Positions 1 to 10,324 of a stretch of DNA of 10,492 bases are shown in pieces (positions within the stretch are counted from its first letter, which is position 1; each line of letters begins with the position of its first letter). The DNA is taken from contig JAUJMI010000092.1 in assembly GCA_030446945.1 (NCBI GenBank), forward strand, positions 1-10,492. The letters run 5' to 3'. The translations under genes and the position numbers were made by a program. This DNA is from Longimicrobium sp. GTDB taxonomy: Bacteria; Gemmatimonadota; Gemmatimonadetes; Longimicrobiales; Longimicrobiaceae. The notes below the pieces were generated by a model. That model was not told where the DNA came from. It saw only the letters and a program-made list of their open reading frames with translations, and made no database searches.

Positions 1-819
1 TTGCTGGACCGCACCACCCCGATCAACGGCCTCCCCATCGACTGGCGCACGCTGGATTCCAAGCGCGAGCGCGACCTGCGCAAGCTGCAAAAGGTGCAGG
101 CGTACGGCTACACGGAGGAGTGCCGGCGCGGCTTCGTGCTGCGCTACTTCGGCGACCCGGCCGCCATGCGCGAGTGCGGCGCCTGCGACAACTGCCTGCG
201 CGCGGTCGGGCGCCCCGCCGTGGCCGGCGCCGGCGCATCGGAGGCGGTGGACCTGGGCACCTCCTCCACGCGCCGCCGCCCCTCGCGCCCCGCGCGCCGC
301 ACCGACCTGCTGGACCGCCTGCGCGAGCTGCGCGGCGAGCTGGCGCGCCGGCACGACCTGCCGCTCTTCATGGTCTTCCCGGAGGAGGTGCTGAAGGCGC
401 TCGCCGGGTACGCCCCCAGCACGCCGGAGGAGGTGCTGCGCGTCCCCGGCGTCACCCCCGCGCTGCTGGACCGCTGGGGGGCGCCGCTGATGGACGTCCT
501 CTCCGCGTTTTCTTTCGAGAACGGAGGCCGCATCGGCCGCCGCGCCCCCGCCGAGCCCGCCCCCAAGCGCGCCGCCCCCCAGGTCGCGCCCCCGACCGCC
601 GAGGAAGCGGACCTGTATGGCAGGCTCAAGGCGCTGCGGTCGAAGCTCGCCAAGGAGGCGAGCCTCCCCTCGTATTGCATCTTCTCGGACAAAACCCTGA
701 TCGAGCTCGCCCGCCGCCGCCCCGGTGACGACGCGGAGATGCTGGAGGTCCCGGGGGTGGGGCCGGCGAAGCTGGAGAAGTACGGGGAGGCGTTCCTGGA
801 GGTGCTGCGGGAGGGGTGA
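1..819 (+). CDS. recQ: RecQ-family ATP-dependent DNA helicase, C-terminal part (5' truncated by window)
   Basis: This is the C-terminal 272 residues of a RecQ-type 3'-5' DNA helicase acting in recombination and repair; the two RecA-like motor domains lie outside the window. The TTG at base 1 is only where the window begins, not a chosen start. The RecQ zinc module is clear: W15, a KL..Y stretch at 28-35, then C41, C59, C62 and C65 with the usual CRR...YFG...C..CDNC pattern. Two HRDC domains follow, at about 101-170 and 202-270, each ending in a helix-hairpin-like element (VPGVTPALLDRWG and VPGVGPAKLEKYG). They are joined by an Ala/Pro-rich linker at about 175-200. E. coli RecQ has an RQC winged-helix domain of about 100 residues between the zinc module and HRDC. 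Here only about 35 low-complexity residues separate them, so that DNA-binding domain appears absent. The family call is firm; helicase activity cannot be judged from this part. Confidence 0.93.
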   Translation: MLDRTTPINGLPIDWRTLDSKRERDLRKLQKVQAYGYTEECRRGFVLRYFGDPAAMRECGACDNCLRAVGRPAVAGAGASEAVDLGTSSTRRRPSRPARRTDLLDRLRELRGELARRHDLPLFMVFPEEVLKALAGYAPSTPEEVLRVPGVTPALLDRWGAPLMDVLSAFSFENGGRIGRRAPAEPAPKRAAPQVAPPTAEEADLYGRLKALRSKLAKEASLPSYCIFSDKTLIELARRRPGDDAEMLEVPGVGPAKLEKYGEAFLEVLREG

Positions 820-1182: not shown

Positions 1183-1257
1183 TCCATCCCGCCCCTCTCC
1201 TCGGTACACTTTGTCAACGGTGACGGAACACCCGCGCGGCAGCATTGTACCGAAGAA

Positions 1258-1509
1258 ATGGCGAAAGACAGGGCGATTTTCCAGGACGGGCGGGGGAGGG
1301 GATGGCTGGTGGAGATCCTCTACGGGCACCCCGCCCCCACCGAGCGCGGGTTCTACGGCGCGCGCTTCCTATGCCCCGAAGACCCCGGGGAGCCGCCGCG
1401 CGTGGGATACGTGGAGATGGACGCCGTGGCCGAGGACGACGAGGAGCTCCTGTTGGAGGCGCTCGCCGAGTCCGAGCCAGCGCGCGAGGCGGGTGAGGAA
1501 GAGCGCTGA
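1258..1509 (+). CDS. Small acidic orphan protein between recQ and dinG (83 aa)
   Basis: I do not recognise this protein. The frame is open from further upstream (1078), but the part before 1258 is repeat DNA. I therefore start at the ATG at 1258, giving an 83-residue protein that begins MAKDRAIF. The shorter start has only weak purines (GAAGAA) directly before it and no proper Shine-Dalgarno. Residues 5-55 look like a compact beta-rich unit with aromatic and Gly positions (GRGWLVEILYG, RGFYGARFLC, RVGYVEMDA). The last 25 or so residues are a Glu/Asp/Ala-rich tail. There is one Cys and no signal peptide or TM segment, so it is probably cytosolic. It lies on the same strand as the flanking helicases, about 110 bp before dinG, so a link to DNA repair is possible but rests only on position. 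Codon usage matches the neighbours, which supports it being real. Confidence 0.6.
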   Translation: MAKDRAIFQDGRGRGWLVEILYGHPAPTERGFYGARFLCPEDPGEPPRVGYVEMDAVAEDDEELLLEALAESEPAREAGEEER

Positions 1510-1617: not shown

Positions 1618-4161
1618 ATGAAGCAGCAACGTTCCGCCGTCGAGCTGTTCCTGGAGCCCGCCGCCGCCGAGCTGGTGCGGCGGGAGATCGCGCGCGCCCG
1701 CGGCAACGAGGTGTGCTTCGTGGCGCGCGTGGGCGAGGGCGGCGCCGTCAGCGAGCCGCGCGTCATCGCCCGCGGCGGGCCGTCGGCGGTGCTGGCGCTG
1801 GTGAAGTCGCCCGAGGCGGGGGGGCTGCTCATCCACAACCACCCCTCGGGCGTGCTGGAGCCCTCCGAGGCGGACTTCCAGGTCGCGGCGCGGGTGTGGG
1901 AGATGGGGCTGGGCTCCGCCGTCGTGGACAACGACGCGAGCGAGCTGTACGTCATCGTGGAGCCGCCCGACGTCAACGAGTGCAATCCGCTCGACCTGGA
2001 CGTGCTCGATCGGGACCTGGGCCCCGGCGGAGCGCTCGCCTCGCGCCACCCACGCTATGAGGACCGGCCGCAGCAGCGCGAGCTGGCGCGCATGATCGGC
2101 TCGCTCTACAACGAGGGAGGCGTCGGCATCGCGGAGGCGGGGACGGGGACGGGGAAGTCGGTAGCGTACCTCCTTCCCGCGATCCACTGGGCGGTGCTCA
2201 ACGGCGAGCGCACGGTGGTGTCCACCAACACCATCAACCTCCAGGAGCAGCTGGTCGACAAGGACCTCCCCATGCTGCGGCGCGCGCTGGGGATCCCCTT
2301 TCGCTTCACGCTGGTGAAGGGGCGGCGCAATTACGTCTCCGTCCGGCGCGCGCTGCTGGCCCGCGACAACGCGGCGGCGCTGTTCGACGCGGAGAAGCAG
2401 GCGGAGCTGGCCGGGATCGTGGAGTGGCTGGGGAAGACGGGCGACGGCTCCCTCTCCGACCTGTCGTTCCGCCCCTCGGCCGAGGTGTGGGACGAGGTGT
2501 CGTCGGAGAGCGACGTGTGCCTGCGGGCGAAGTGCCCCAACTTCGAGGACTGCTTCTACCAGCGCGCCCGGCGCGAGGCGTCCGCGGCGGACATCATCGT
2601 CTCCAACCACCACCTCCTGTTCAGCGACCTGGCCGTGCGCCGCGCGCAGGGGAACTACTCCGCCACCGCCGTCCTGCCGCACTACAAGCGGCTGGTGCTG
2701 GACGAGGCGCACAACCTGGAGGAGGCGGCGACGAGCCACCTCGGCGCCACCGTCTCCCGCCGTGGCCTCTTCCGCACGCTGCGACGGCTGGAGCACCGGG
2801 GAAAGGGGCTGCTGCCGGCCTTCCGAGGGGCGCTTGGGGCGGTGAAGAACGACCTGCTGGCCCGGGCCGCGCTCGACACCATCGAGGAGCGGCTTCTTCC
2901 GTCCCTCGAAGGCGCGCGGGAGCGGGCGGCGGCGGTGTTCTCCTTTCTCAACGACGTCTTCAACTCCGGCGAGCCCCTCGCTCGGCTGGACGACCACTTC
3001 GCCGCGCACCCCGTGTGGCCGCTGGGGCTGGACGACGCACTCTCCGGGCTCCTGGACAACCTCCAGTCGCTGCTGGCCGGGATGGAGCTCCTGCGCGAGC
3101 GCGCCGCCACCGACGACGAGCTGCGCCGCCAGATGGAGCAGCAGCTGATGGAGCTGCGCGGCGCCGCCAACCGCGTGCAGGGCGCCGCGGACGGCCTGCG
3201 CATGGCGCTGCGCCCCGGCGACGAGCGCGTCAAGATGGTGCGCTGGATGGAGCGGCAGGCGGCACGCGAAGGCCGCGAGGGGAACCTGACGCTGAACGCC
3301 GCCCCGCTGGACCTCTCCGGCGTCCTGCGCGAGTCGGTCTTCGAGCAGGTGCCGACGGTGATCCTGACCTCGGCGACCCTTTCGACGCAGGAGAAGGACT
3401 TCCGCTTCGTGCGCCACCGCCTGGGCCTCAGCGACGTCTTCGAGCAGGAGCACCCGGTGGCGGAGGCCGTTTTCCCGTCGCCCTTCGACTACGGTCGGCA
3501 GGCGCTCCTGGCTGTCCCCACCGACCTGCCGCTCCCCGCGGGCGATGCGGATCCGCGCCACGACGAGGCCAGCGTGCGCGCGGTGCTGGAGCACGCCAAG
3601 ATCTCGGACGGGGGCCTCTTCGTCCTCTTCACCTCGTACCGCGCGCTCCGCCACGTGGCCTCCGAGCTGCGCCGCCGCCGCGCCGACCTGGAGTGGCCGC
3701 TCTTCGTGCACGGCGAGGGGCCGCGCGCGCAGCTGGTGGAGCGCTTCGCCGTCTCCGGGCGCGGCATCCTGCTGGGGACCACCTCGTTCTGGGAGGGGGT
3801 GGACGTCCCCGGCTCGGCGTTGCGCGGGCTGGTGATCCCCAAGCTTCCCTTCAAGGTCCCCAGCGAGCCCGTGACCGCCGCGCGCATCGAGGCGATCGAG
3901 AGGGCGGGCGGCAACTCCTTCGTCTCGTACATGCTCCCCAGCGCGGCGATCCGGCTGAAGCAGGGCTTCGGCCGTCTGATCCGCTCCACCGGCGACCACG
4001 GCGTCGTACTGGTGCTGGACGGACGCGTGGCGAAGAAGAGCTACGGCCGCTATTTCATCGACTCCCTCCCCCCGGCGCCGGTGGTGAAGGGGCCGTGGCG
4101 CGAGGTGAAGGAGGCGATGCTGAGGTTTTATGGGGAGCGGGAGGAGCGTAGGGCGGGGTAG
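1618..4161 (+). CDS. dinG: RadC-like JAMM domain fused to a DinG/XPD-family helicase (847 aa)
   Basis: This is an SF2 helicase of the DinG/XPD group with an extra N-terminal domain. Residues 1-118 look like a RadC-type JAB/MPN fold with the full JAMM zinc motif: E31, then H73-N-H75-P-S-G and S83-x-x-D86. The helicase follows. It shows a Q-motif region (RYEDRPQQ, 146-153), Walker A EAGTGTGKS (173-181), a DEAH box (362-365), motif III TSATL (584-588), motif V GTTSFWEGVDVPG (720-732) and motif VI QGFGRLIRS (782-790). Fe-S domain cysteines C301, C306 and C312 are present. The expected first cysteine, after KGRRNYV, is S241 (TCC codon). DinG family helicases unwind 5'-3' on forked DNA, D-loops, R-loops and quadruplexes; that this one does so is inference. 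Gram-positive DinG proteins often carry an N-terminal exonuclease domain, whereas here a JAMM domain takes that place. The ATG at 1618 is the first sensible start, though no strong Shine-Dalgarno precedes it. The symbol refers to the helicase part. Confidence 0.93.
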   Translation: MKQQRSAVELFLEPAAAELVRREIARARGNEVCFVARVGEGGAVSEPRVIARGGPSAVLALVKSPEAGGLLIHNHPSGVLEPSEADFQVAARVWEMGLGSAVVDNDASELYVIVEPPDVNECNPLDLDVLDRDLGPGGALASRHPRYEDRPQQRELARMIGSLYNEGGVGIAEAGTGTGKSVAYLLPAIHWAVLNGERTVVSTNTINLQEQLVDKDLPMLRRALGIPFRFTLVKGRRNYVSVRRALLARDNAAALFDAEKQAELAGIVEWLGKTGDGSLSDLSFRPSAEVWDEVSSESDVCLRAKCPNFEDCFYQRARREASAADIIVSNHHLLFSDLAVRRAQGNYSATAVLPHYKRLVLDEAHNLEEAATSHLGATVSRRGLFRTLRRLEHRGKGLLPAFRGALGAVKNDLLARAALDTIEERLLPSLEGARERAAAVFSFLNDVFNSGEPLARLDDHFAAHPVWPLGLDDALSGLLDNLQSLLAGMELLRERAATDDELRRQMEQQLMELRGAANRVQGAADGLRMALRPGDERVKMVRWMERQAAREGREGNLTLNAAPLDLSGVLRESVFEQVPTVILTSATLSTQEKDFRFVRHRLGLSDVFEQEHPVAEAVFPSPFDYGRQALLAVPTDLPLPAGDADPRHDEASVRAVLEHAKISDGGLFVLFTSYRALRHVASELRRRRADLEWPLFVHGEGPRAQLVERFAVSGRGILLGTTSFWEGVDVPGSALRGLVIPKLPFKVPSEPVTAARIEAIERAGGNSFVSYMLPSAAIRLKQGFGRLIRSTGDHGVVLVLDGRVAKKSYGRYFIDSLPPAPVVKGPWREVKEAMLRFYGEREERRAG

Positions 4162-4263: not shown

Positions 4264-4562
4264 GGTGCCCCTCCTGCAAACCACTGGGCGGGGGCGCGCA
4301 GGCATCGGTGCGGGGCTGCGTGGGCCGTCGTGGGGTCGGGACGGGCAGACACGCACGAGGCGTCCTTGCGCGAGGGGCGGCGGAGCAGCGCCGGGGCACG
4401 CCTGGAATGCCGGAGGGCCCGCGAGAGGGGGAGCCCGCGTGCCCCGAATCTCTGCGGACGCGCGCCGACATCCGCCCCCTCTCCGGATAACAGAGGCGCA
4501 GCCTCTCCCGTTACCGGGAGAGGGGGCAGCGAGGAACGAGCGGGGGTGAGGGTCCCCGCGGA
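4264..4562 (-). repeat. Mosaic intergenic repeat, copy B (inverted relative to copy A)
   Basis: Read on the minus strand, this follows copy A (824-1182) block by block. The shared blocks are CCCTCACCCCCG (4542-4553), the CCCCCTCTCCCGGTAAC core (4509-4525), CTCCGCCGCCCCTCGCGCA, TGCGTGTCTG, and GATGCCTGCG followed by a CCAGTGGTT-like end near 4280. The hairpin core is better preserved here on one side, with CCTCTCCCG (4502-4510) followed by CGGGAGAGG (4515-4523). A + strand frame crosses the whole element and runs into the lspA remnant, but its repeat-encoded part has no protein-like features. The right end of the element lies about 45 bp before the point where lspA similarity begins. Confidence 0.75.
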
Positions 4563-9479: not shown

Positions 9480-10166
9480 TCACACCGGCGCGTCGCCCTC
9501 CGGCTCGGGCGCGGGGGTGGGGCGCACGCGGATGCGCTGGGCCAGCGAGTGGCTGATGACCGTGCGCGCCCCGTTCACCGCCACCGACACGGGGCCGTCG
9601 AAGGGCGACTTGTCCAGCAGCTCCACCTCCGCGCCGGGGCGCAGGTTGAGCGAGCCCAGGTAGCGCAGCTGCTCCGGCTCGTCCACCTCCACCTCCAGGA
9701 TGCGCCGGCACTCGCCCGTGGCCAGGTCGCCCAGCGAGGGGTAGTGCGCGGTGTCCACCTCGCCGGTGGCGCTGGGGATGGCGTTGCCGTGCGGGTCGCG
9801 GTCCGGCCCGCCCAGCAGCCGCGCCAGCCGCTCGATCAGCTCGTCGCTGGCGGCGTGCTCCAGCCGGTCGGCCTCCTCGTGCACTCGGTCCCACTCGTAG
9901 CCCAGCTTCTCCACCAGGAACAGCTCCAGCACACGGTGGCGGCGGATGATGCGCAGCGCCGCCAGCTCTCCCGAGGCGGTGAGCCGCACGCCGTAGTACG
10001 GCTCGTGGCGCACCAGCCCCTGCTCCGCCAGGCGCTTGACCATGGCGGTGACGGCCGCGGAGGTGAGCCCCAGCCGCTCCGCGATCCGCGACGTGGCCAC
10101 GGGCGACTCCAACTGCTGGAGCATCCACACGGCCTTGAGGTAGTCTTCCACAACCTGGCTGAACAT
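9480..10166 (-). CDS. mntR: DtxR/MntR-family metal-dependent transcriptional repressor with FeoA-like domain
   Basis: This 228-residue regulator senses divalent metal and represses uptake genes when metal is bound. Domains in order are a winged helix-turn-helix (1-65, VEDYLKAVWML then SRIAERLGLTSAAVTAMVKRLAEQGLV), a metal-binding and dimerisation domain (66-135) and an SH3-like FeoA domain (about 142-215). By alignment to DtxR the first site is H77 (RRHRVLE), E81 and H96, and the second includes E103 and H104. The second-site residue that is Cys102 in DtxR and IdeR is D100 here, and D8 matches the MntR N-terminal ligand. Carboxylates in place of Cys favour Mn(II) over Fe(II), so I prefer an MntR-like role; the FeoA domain keeps an IdeR-like layout. 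I chose ATG 10166 because homology begins there. The frame extends upstream to 10289 without family similarity. No metal transporter is in view. Confidence 0.9.
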   Translation of the reverse strand: MFSQVVEDYLKAVWMLQQLESPVATSRIAERLGLTSAAVTAMVKRLAEQGLVRHEPYYGVRLTASGELAALRIIRRHRVLELFLVEKLGYEWDRVHEEADRLEHAASDELIERLARLLGGPDRDPHGNAIPSATGEVDTAHYPSLGDLATGECRRILEVEVDEPEQLRYLGSLNLRPGAEVELLDKSPFDGPVSVAVNGARTVISHSLAQRIRVRPTPAPEPEGDAPV

Positions 10167-10214
10167 CGACACGGCGCGCCCACGGGGTCGGGTTGAATGC
10201 GGGATGCGCTGAAC

Positions 10215-10242
10215 AGTATGACACATCTTGGCGACGCGGCAA
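10215..10242 (-). promoter_or_regulatory. Possible sigma-70-type promoter of the DtxR-family gene
   Basis: On the minus strand TTGCCG (10242-10237) and CATACT (10220-10215) are separated by 16 bp, each matching the consensus hexamer at four of six positions. Transcription would begin near 10208, about 40 bases before the start codon. This is a plausible but weak match. Confidence 0.35.
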
Positions 10243-10259
10243 GCGGCACCTTGCGCGTC
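10233..10259. promoter_or_regulatory. Imperfect dyad in the divergent intergenic region, candidate operator
   Basis: GACGCGGCAAG (10233-10243) and CTTGCGCGTC (10250-10259) form inverted arms of 10 pairs with one extra G, separated by 6 bases. The dyad covers the -35 hexamer of the candidate minus-strand promoter. That would suit autorepression by the DtxR-family protein, or control of the divergent gene. It does not closely match a known MntR or IdeR box. Confidence 0.3.
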
Positions 10260-10324
10260 CGCACGATTCGCGCGCATGTTTGGGGTCATCCTGCTGCACC
10301 GGCCCCCTTATCTGCCGTGCCCGC

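Follow-up and report, generated by a model that had tools for sequence, protein, structure and literature searches.

The stretch of DNA analysed here (the window: 10,492 nucleotides of Longimicrobium sp., contig JAUJMI010000092.1, assembly GCA_030446945.1) carries a gene whose predicted product combines an MPN/JAB fold bearing a complete JAMM motif with a YoaA/DinG-type helicase, an architecture known as RadC-like DinG. A first-pass annotation made from the letters alone had read the gene as a RadC-like JAMM domain fused to a DinG/XPD helicase; both the frame, beginning with the ATG at 1618 and ending with the stop at 4161, and the two-part architecture are borne out by Pfam, profile and structure searches and by an AlphaFold2 model (Table 1).

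Table 1. Features of the fusion gene and of the other genes and frames in the window (residue numbers are those of the fusion protein)
Feature	Position	Strand	Basis or remark
RadC-like DinG, whole gene	1618..4161	+	ATG 1618, 847 amino acids, stop included
RadC-like JAB/MPN domain, residues 10-117	1645..1968	+	Pfam PF04002, PDB 2qlc profile match, AlphaFold2 domain model
E31, JAMM glutamate, start of first strand	1708..1710	+	alignment, AlphaFold2 model
H73-N74-H75, JAMM histidines, strand end	1834..1842	+	alignment, AlphaFold2 model
S83 to D86, JAMM serine and aspartate, helix start	1864..1875	+	alignment, AlphaFold2 model
Linker between JAB domain and helicase, residues 118-140	1969..2037	+	AlphaFold2 model; domain-loss proteins align from 112-138
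Walker A, EAGTGTGKS, residues 173-181	2134..2160	+	sequence
Ser241, in place of the first iron-sulphur cysteine	2338..2340	+	alignment
Iron-sulphur cysteines 301, 306, 312	2518..2553	+	alignment
DEAH box, residues 362-365	2701..2712	+	sequence
Helicase_C_2 domain, residues 658-819	3589..4074	+	Pfam PF13307, 151.3 bits
C-terminal helix 827-846, alpha7 of YoaA / RadC-like DinG (PMC11981726)	4096..4155	+	AlphaFold2 model
RecQ helicase, C-terminal part with zinc-binding and HRDC domains	1-819	+	cut by contig start, upstream of fusion gene
Small frame, 95 codons, just upstream of fusion gene	1222-1509	+	maybe not a gene
DtxR-type metal-dependent repressor with C-terminal FeoA domain	9480-10289	-	domain match

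The two parts of the fusion protein

With respect to the N-terminal part, Pfam RadC (PF04002, cut-off 22.1 bits) matches residues 68-96, scoring 28.1 bits against residues 1-121 taken alone and 23.5 bits against the whole protein, and it matches the JAB domains of 15/15 fusion proteins scanned. In residues 1-121 the Pfam matches are to RadC and Prok-JAB only, with no DnaQ-type exonuclease domain among them. A profile of 15 fusion JAB domains retrieves the RadC structure 2qlc (E = 2.3e-8) and AfJAMM only weakly (E 0.19-0.22). The AlphaFold2 models reach a mean predicted local distance difference test score of 88.4 for the whole protein and of 84.7 for the JAB domain alone; a Foldseek search with the latter gives RadC 2qlc (E 3.0e-6) and JAMM proteins as top matches and also finds Rpn11, CSN5, PfJAMM1 and the bacterial BubCD. 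The search with the whole model, which has helicases only among the matches listed, is uninformative for this part. The absence of an MPN/JAB fold, which would have overturned the initial reading, is thus contradicted by model and structure search, and the proposed signature of E31, H73, H75, S83 and D86 is complete, its spacing H73-x-H75-x7-S83-x2-D86 being that of the JAMM motif and the whole E-Xn-H-x-H-x7-S-x2-D pattern lying on an MPN fold in sequence and model.

The remainder of the protein consists of DEAD, DEAD_2 and Helicase_C_2 domains according to Pfam, and its fold is closest to DinG (6fwr) in the structure search. In NCBIfam the top-scoring family is YoaA (561.5 bits), followed by DinG (460.7 bits), both below their cut-offs. 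The C-terminal helix was equated with alpha7 by its position after motor domain 2, without superposition. As to the claim that all DinG helicase motifs are present, it stands for the segments which we take to be Walker A, the DEAH box and QGFGRLIRS (residues 782-790), and fails for the first cysteine of the iron-sulphur (Fe-S) site: instead of the four cysteines of DinG/XPD helicases, the protein has Ser241-C301-C306-C312. In an alignment of 132 homologues, position 241 is serine in 26/46 Gemmatimonadota rows, these being every row from the window's order, and in 4/12 rows from the Sumerlaeota phylum; the remaining 102/132 rows have cysteine. The three other cysteines are invariant in 46/46 rows of the window's class and present in 131/132 rows overall, the exception being L249. 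This is a natural Ser-Cys-Cys-Cys variant of the Fe-S motif, and three-cysteine variants are in general counted as possible Fe-S domains (PMC11981726).

A mis-called start or an assembly chimera, which would place the JAB segment outside the protein, was considered and rejected as extremely improbable. The window does come from one contig of a 526-contig metagenome-assembled genome (MAG), which by itself lends no support to an artefact. A stop codon lies in frame at 1606, just 5' of the ATG; residues 1-400 are covered to 93-100% in 120 homologues among the matches listed, residues 10-117 being conserved across phyla, and this speaks against a true start after residue 120. In addition, of the 97 matching genomes of the class, 88 have the unbroken frame, aligned from no later than residue 19, and it is also found in complete single-contig assemblies (e.g., G138 and G140) and in other phyla.

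Distribution, constraint and history

A survey by phylum, as had been proposed, found the fusion in at least five phyla, the lineages being Gemmatimonadota, Spirochaetota, Desulfobacterota, Sumerlaeota, Dadabacteria and Fusobacterium; the labels Spirochaetota, Desulfobacterota and Sumerlaeota were taken from the genomes at the centre of the respective sets, i.e., Treponema, Desulfuromonadaceae and Ca. Sumerlaeaceae MAGs. In the window's own class the protein is matched in 97/149 genomes, and the alignments of 88 of these, starting at residue 19 or earlier, include the JAB domain. Of the others, six begin only at residues 116-147 (G018, G033, G045, G051, G053, G060), in G110 the JAB and helicase parts are split between two contig ends, in G065 a contig edge truncates the match, and G016 gives a weak partial match only. 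The 52/149 class genomes that have no match to the protein belong, among those listed, mostly to families f4, f5 and f9. Matches were found in 182/198 genomes of the Treponema set (at least 88 aligning from residues 3-26), in 45/79 of the Desulfuromonadaceae set (seven from residue 17 or earlier, one from residue 38) and in 38/40 of the Ca. Sumerlaeaceae set (31 from residue 24 or earlier). The fusion is also present in a Ca. Dadabacteria MAG and in Fusobacterium vincentii, there over residues 16-824 with 29% identity. Finally, a pattern scan, in which the first 80 of 119 stretches were analysed (L052-L131), added 20 genomes, ten with the fusion and ten with the helicase only (from residue 132 or later), the latter including Acidobacteria, Desulfobulbaceae and Elusimicrobia MAGs.

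Among the 132 aligned homologues, mostly best matches to the window's protein per phylum and 38 of them fetched by place, 101 have E, H, H and D, five have a decayed site, 25 lack the domain, and one (L040, its helicase cut at the contig end) was left unassigned; because the rows were picked as best matches or by place, these counts are not natural frequencies. The JAMM residues are thus intact in 101/106 JAB-bearing sequences, L249 being counted as intact with its E31 position missing at a contig edge. Since intact rows were selected by E, H, H and D only, the states of N74, P76 and S83 are independent of the selection, and all three are invariant in 101/101 intact rows; G53 is found in 100/100, as is E31 in the 100/100 rows having that position, the selection having used this residue. 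Pairwise identity is 35-52% among 20 aligned JAB domains and that of the window, and with a mean frequency of the commonest residue of 0.53 against 0.50 for the helicase, the JAB domain is equally conserved. The invariance of the site together with the conservation of the domain argues for a site that would be working in most lineages.

In turn, the decayed sites are found in three Gemmatimonadota rows (L032, L033, L034), in a Desulfobacterota row (L231) and in Fusobacterium (L051). In the latter the domain is retained and its JAMM residues are lost; the sequence concerned, NZ_CP084075.1, is 2.1 Mb long and filed as a Fusobacterium vincentii plasmid, and is probably a chromosome. A first tree, computed from the helicase columns only, places all JAB-bearing rows in one group of 116 rows (Shimodaira-Hasegawa-like approximate likelihood ratio test, SH-aLRT, 98), which also contains nine domain-less rows. 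A second helicase-only tree under a mixture model, with 97 rows after 35 of the 132 had been dropped as near-copies or long branches, separates the JAB-bearing and six nested domain-less rows from 12 outgroup rows (SH-aLRT 99). The roots were placed on JAB-less rows, 14 in the first tree, where the root branch has a support of 13, and 12 in the second; both trees were built without DnaQ-DinG or E. coli DinG/YoaA, and the residue composition is uneven among many rows. Because the sampled JAB-bearing proteins form one group on trees from which their JAB domains were left out, one old fusion is likely, and the simplest reading of the data would be a single old fusion followed by about four events of decay and at least four losses of the domain. 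The losses inside the group concern L035-L038, L039, L042 and L222-L223, with L181, which is long-branched, as a possible further case. The domain-less L042 is the sister of L033 and L034 with their decayed domains, which suggests that decay preceded loss on this branch.

It might be assumed that genomes with a domain-less helicase keep the fusion-type JAB domain as a separate gene. A JAB profile search of ten such genomes led to the rejection of this idea: it found no separate fusion-type JAB and only one match each, in another open frame, with 21.7-33.0 bits against 150.8 for the window's fusion, as expected of stand-alone RadC. Given its repeated decay and loss, the sequences show the JAB domain to be an accessory part that the helicase can do without in several lineages.

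Possible roles of the N-terminal domain

Taken together, RadC-like DinG is probably a YoaA-type Fe-S helicase that carries an accessory RadC-JAMM zinc hydrolase in cis. In this model the YoaA-type DNA helicase would act on blocked or stalled DNA, where it would open or displace a strand, and the N-terminal domain would hydrolyse something that the helicase exposes. Zinc binding and helicase activity are predicted, catalysis is deduced from the JAMM motif and its constraint, and a role at the fork would follow by analogy with YoaA.

Among the candidate substrates, nucleic acid or a blocked strand end may be slightly favoured, as a quite conceivable choice, over a protein or peptide bond, itself a possibility to be taken seriously; a non-catalytic role accounts for the rest. 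Nucleic acid is favoured because other DinG subgroups have nucleases in the same place, namely the exonuclease of ExoDinG and the endonuclease of EndoDinG (PMC11981726), and because members of the RadC clade reportedly have no groove for a ubiquitin tail; a nuclease role has been proposed for this clade (PMC5512222, PMC3482391). The first-pass annotation had suggested that a protein or a protein modification is removed from DNA, and this is a fair rival: a metalloprotease or isopeptidase would strip such groups from DNA-bound substrates as the helicase moves. The closest solved folds to the JAB domain are indeed RadC itself and metallo-isopeptidases such as those matched by the model (Rpn11, CSN5, PfJAMM1, BubCD), and the characterised JAMM enzymes named in PMC5512222 and PMC11981726 are peptidases of ubiquitin-like proteins. 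However, a common fold reveals no substrate, several lineages manage without the domain, and a missing tail groove does not fit this activity well, so that we regard this protease as possible and somewhat unlikely.

A further alternative is that the RadC-like domain recruits the helicase as a docking module, replacing the HolC-SSB link of YoaA, with the JAMM residues forming a structural metal site. A search of the window's own genome detected no HolC (PF04364); this genome is 86% complete, so that a gap is possible, and the E. coli and Caulobacter controls were positive. HolC is also reported to be absent alongside RadC-like DinG (PMC11981726). In line with docking, the five decayed proteins named above retain the domain without its motif; on the other hand, the full catalytic set including E31 is kept in nearly all JAB-bearing sequences of several phyla. 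In AfJAMM the glutamate equivalent to E31 presumably bonds to water. It is described there as not zinc-bound (PMC300881), and because the glutamate is no zinc ligand, E31 ought to be superfluous if the metal site were purely structural. Docking is therefore considered improbable, and a zinc hydrolase in cis remains the preferred reading.

The activity of RadC itself is unsettled, a function in DNA repair having been both claimed and disputed and nuclease as well as peptidase roles having been proposed, even though RadC proteins are among the most widespread JAB proteins of prokaryotes (PMC5512222, PMC3482391 and PMC11981726). Tentatively, RadC-type JAMM domains might be hydrolases of nucleic acids or DNA adducts, placed here in cis with an Fe-S helicase as an ancient counterpart of DnaQ-DinG. 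If so, the natural series of intact (101), decayed (5) and lost domains (at least four lineages), which provides ready pairs of close relatives that differ in having the site, would make the activity of RadC directly testable; if an activity were found, a helicase-coupled processing step would be defined in phyla in which the fusion is a common or the usual DinG (Spirochaetota, Gemmatimonadota).

A conserved operon that would explain the function was rejected: among the Gemmatimonadota loci listed in the comparison, the genes downstream encode an FAA hydrolase and a class I/II aminotransferase, and those upstream encode proteins without Pfam match. A phage-defence reading was likewise rejected, the PADLOC matches being type IV-A DinG models restricted to the helicase part, the best of them scoring 448.5 bits over residues 139-824, with no match for the three other proteins of the window that were submitted. 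The small upstream frame has no Pfam match above the cut-off and no NCBIfam or PADLOC match. Separately, imperfect intergenic inverted repeats at 855-911 and 4474-4527 have a common arm, GCCCCCTCTCCNGATAAC, with 75 matches in the own genome (at most one mismatch) and none in the reversed control; the copies are often facing pairs about 35-40 bases apart and form a dispersed family like repetitive extragenic palindromic (REP) elements.

Relation to known systems

Stand-alone RadC (PF04002; 2qlc), the closest solved structure by sequence, shares the fold and the HNHPSG...PS..D motif with the JAB domain. In contrast to it, the overlap in the window's protein is shorter (Pfam 66-95 of 121), and the RadC cut-offs are far from reached (22.6 of 180 bits for NF000642 and 18.0 of 133.85 bits for TIGR00608). 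The genome that carries the fusion also has, at another locus, a full-length RadC domain outside it (C401:3943-4302, L001; 156.2 bits).

The Gram-positive ExoDinG or DnaQ-DinG proteins (TIGR01407) likewise have an enzyme domain preceding the same helicase. However, theirs is a DnaQ exonuclease whereas the N-terminal model obtained here is an MPN/JAMM fold, and the TIGR01407 match, over profile positions 245-887 of 889, covers no more than the helicase. YoaA of E. coli, the top NCBIfam match of the helicase, shares the alpha7 helix; as described it lacks a JAB domain and has HolC as its partner, while the window's helicase stays below the cut-off of NF053712 (561.5 against 680 bits) and was found without HolC, and it is accordingly not classed as YoaA.

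That RadC-type JAMM proteins and DinG helicases are normally separate, as first supposed, is wrong. The architecture belongs to an already named, widespread protein family and is not new: it was named RadC-like DinG in a 2025 review (Cheng 2025, section 3.8; PMC11981726), and RadC-DinG fusions had been mentioned earlier (PMC5512222). By contrast, the comparative history (one branch, a constrained site, repeated decay and loss, and serine for cysteine) is added here; it was not found in a limited look at the literature. The window's protein has the traits of the named subgroup that were compared, i.e., the N-terminal RadC-like domain with E31, H73, H75 and D86 on a DinG-type helicase with an Fe-S region, helix 827-846 in the place of alpha7, and a genome in which HolC was not found. 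The main text of the review does not mention Gemmatimonadota, to which the window belongs, and gives E, H, H and D as conserved, whereas the present alignment contains lineages with decayed sites; in the protein itself, the difference is Ser241 where the first Fe-S cysteine would stand.
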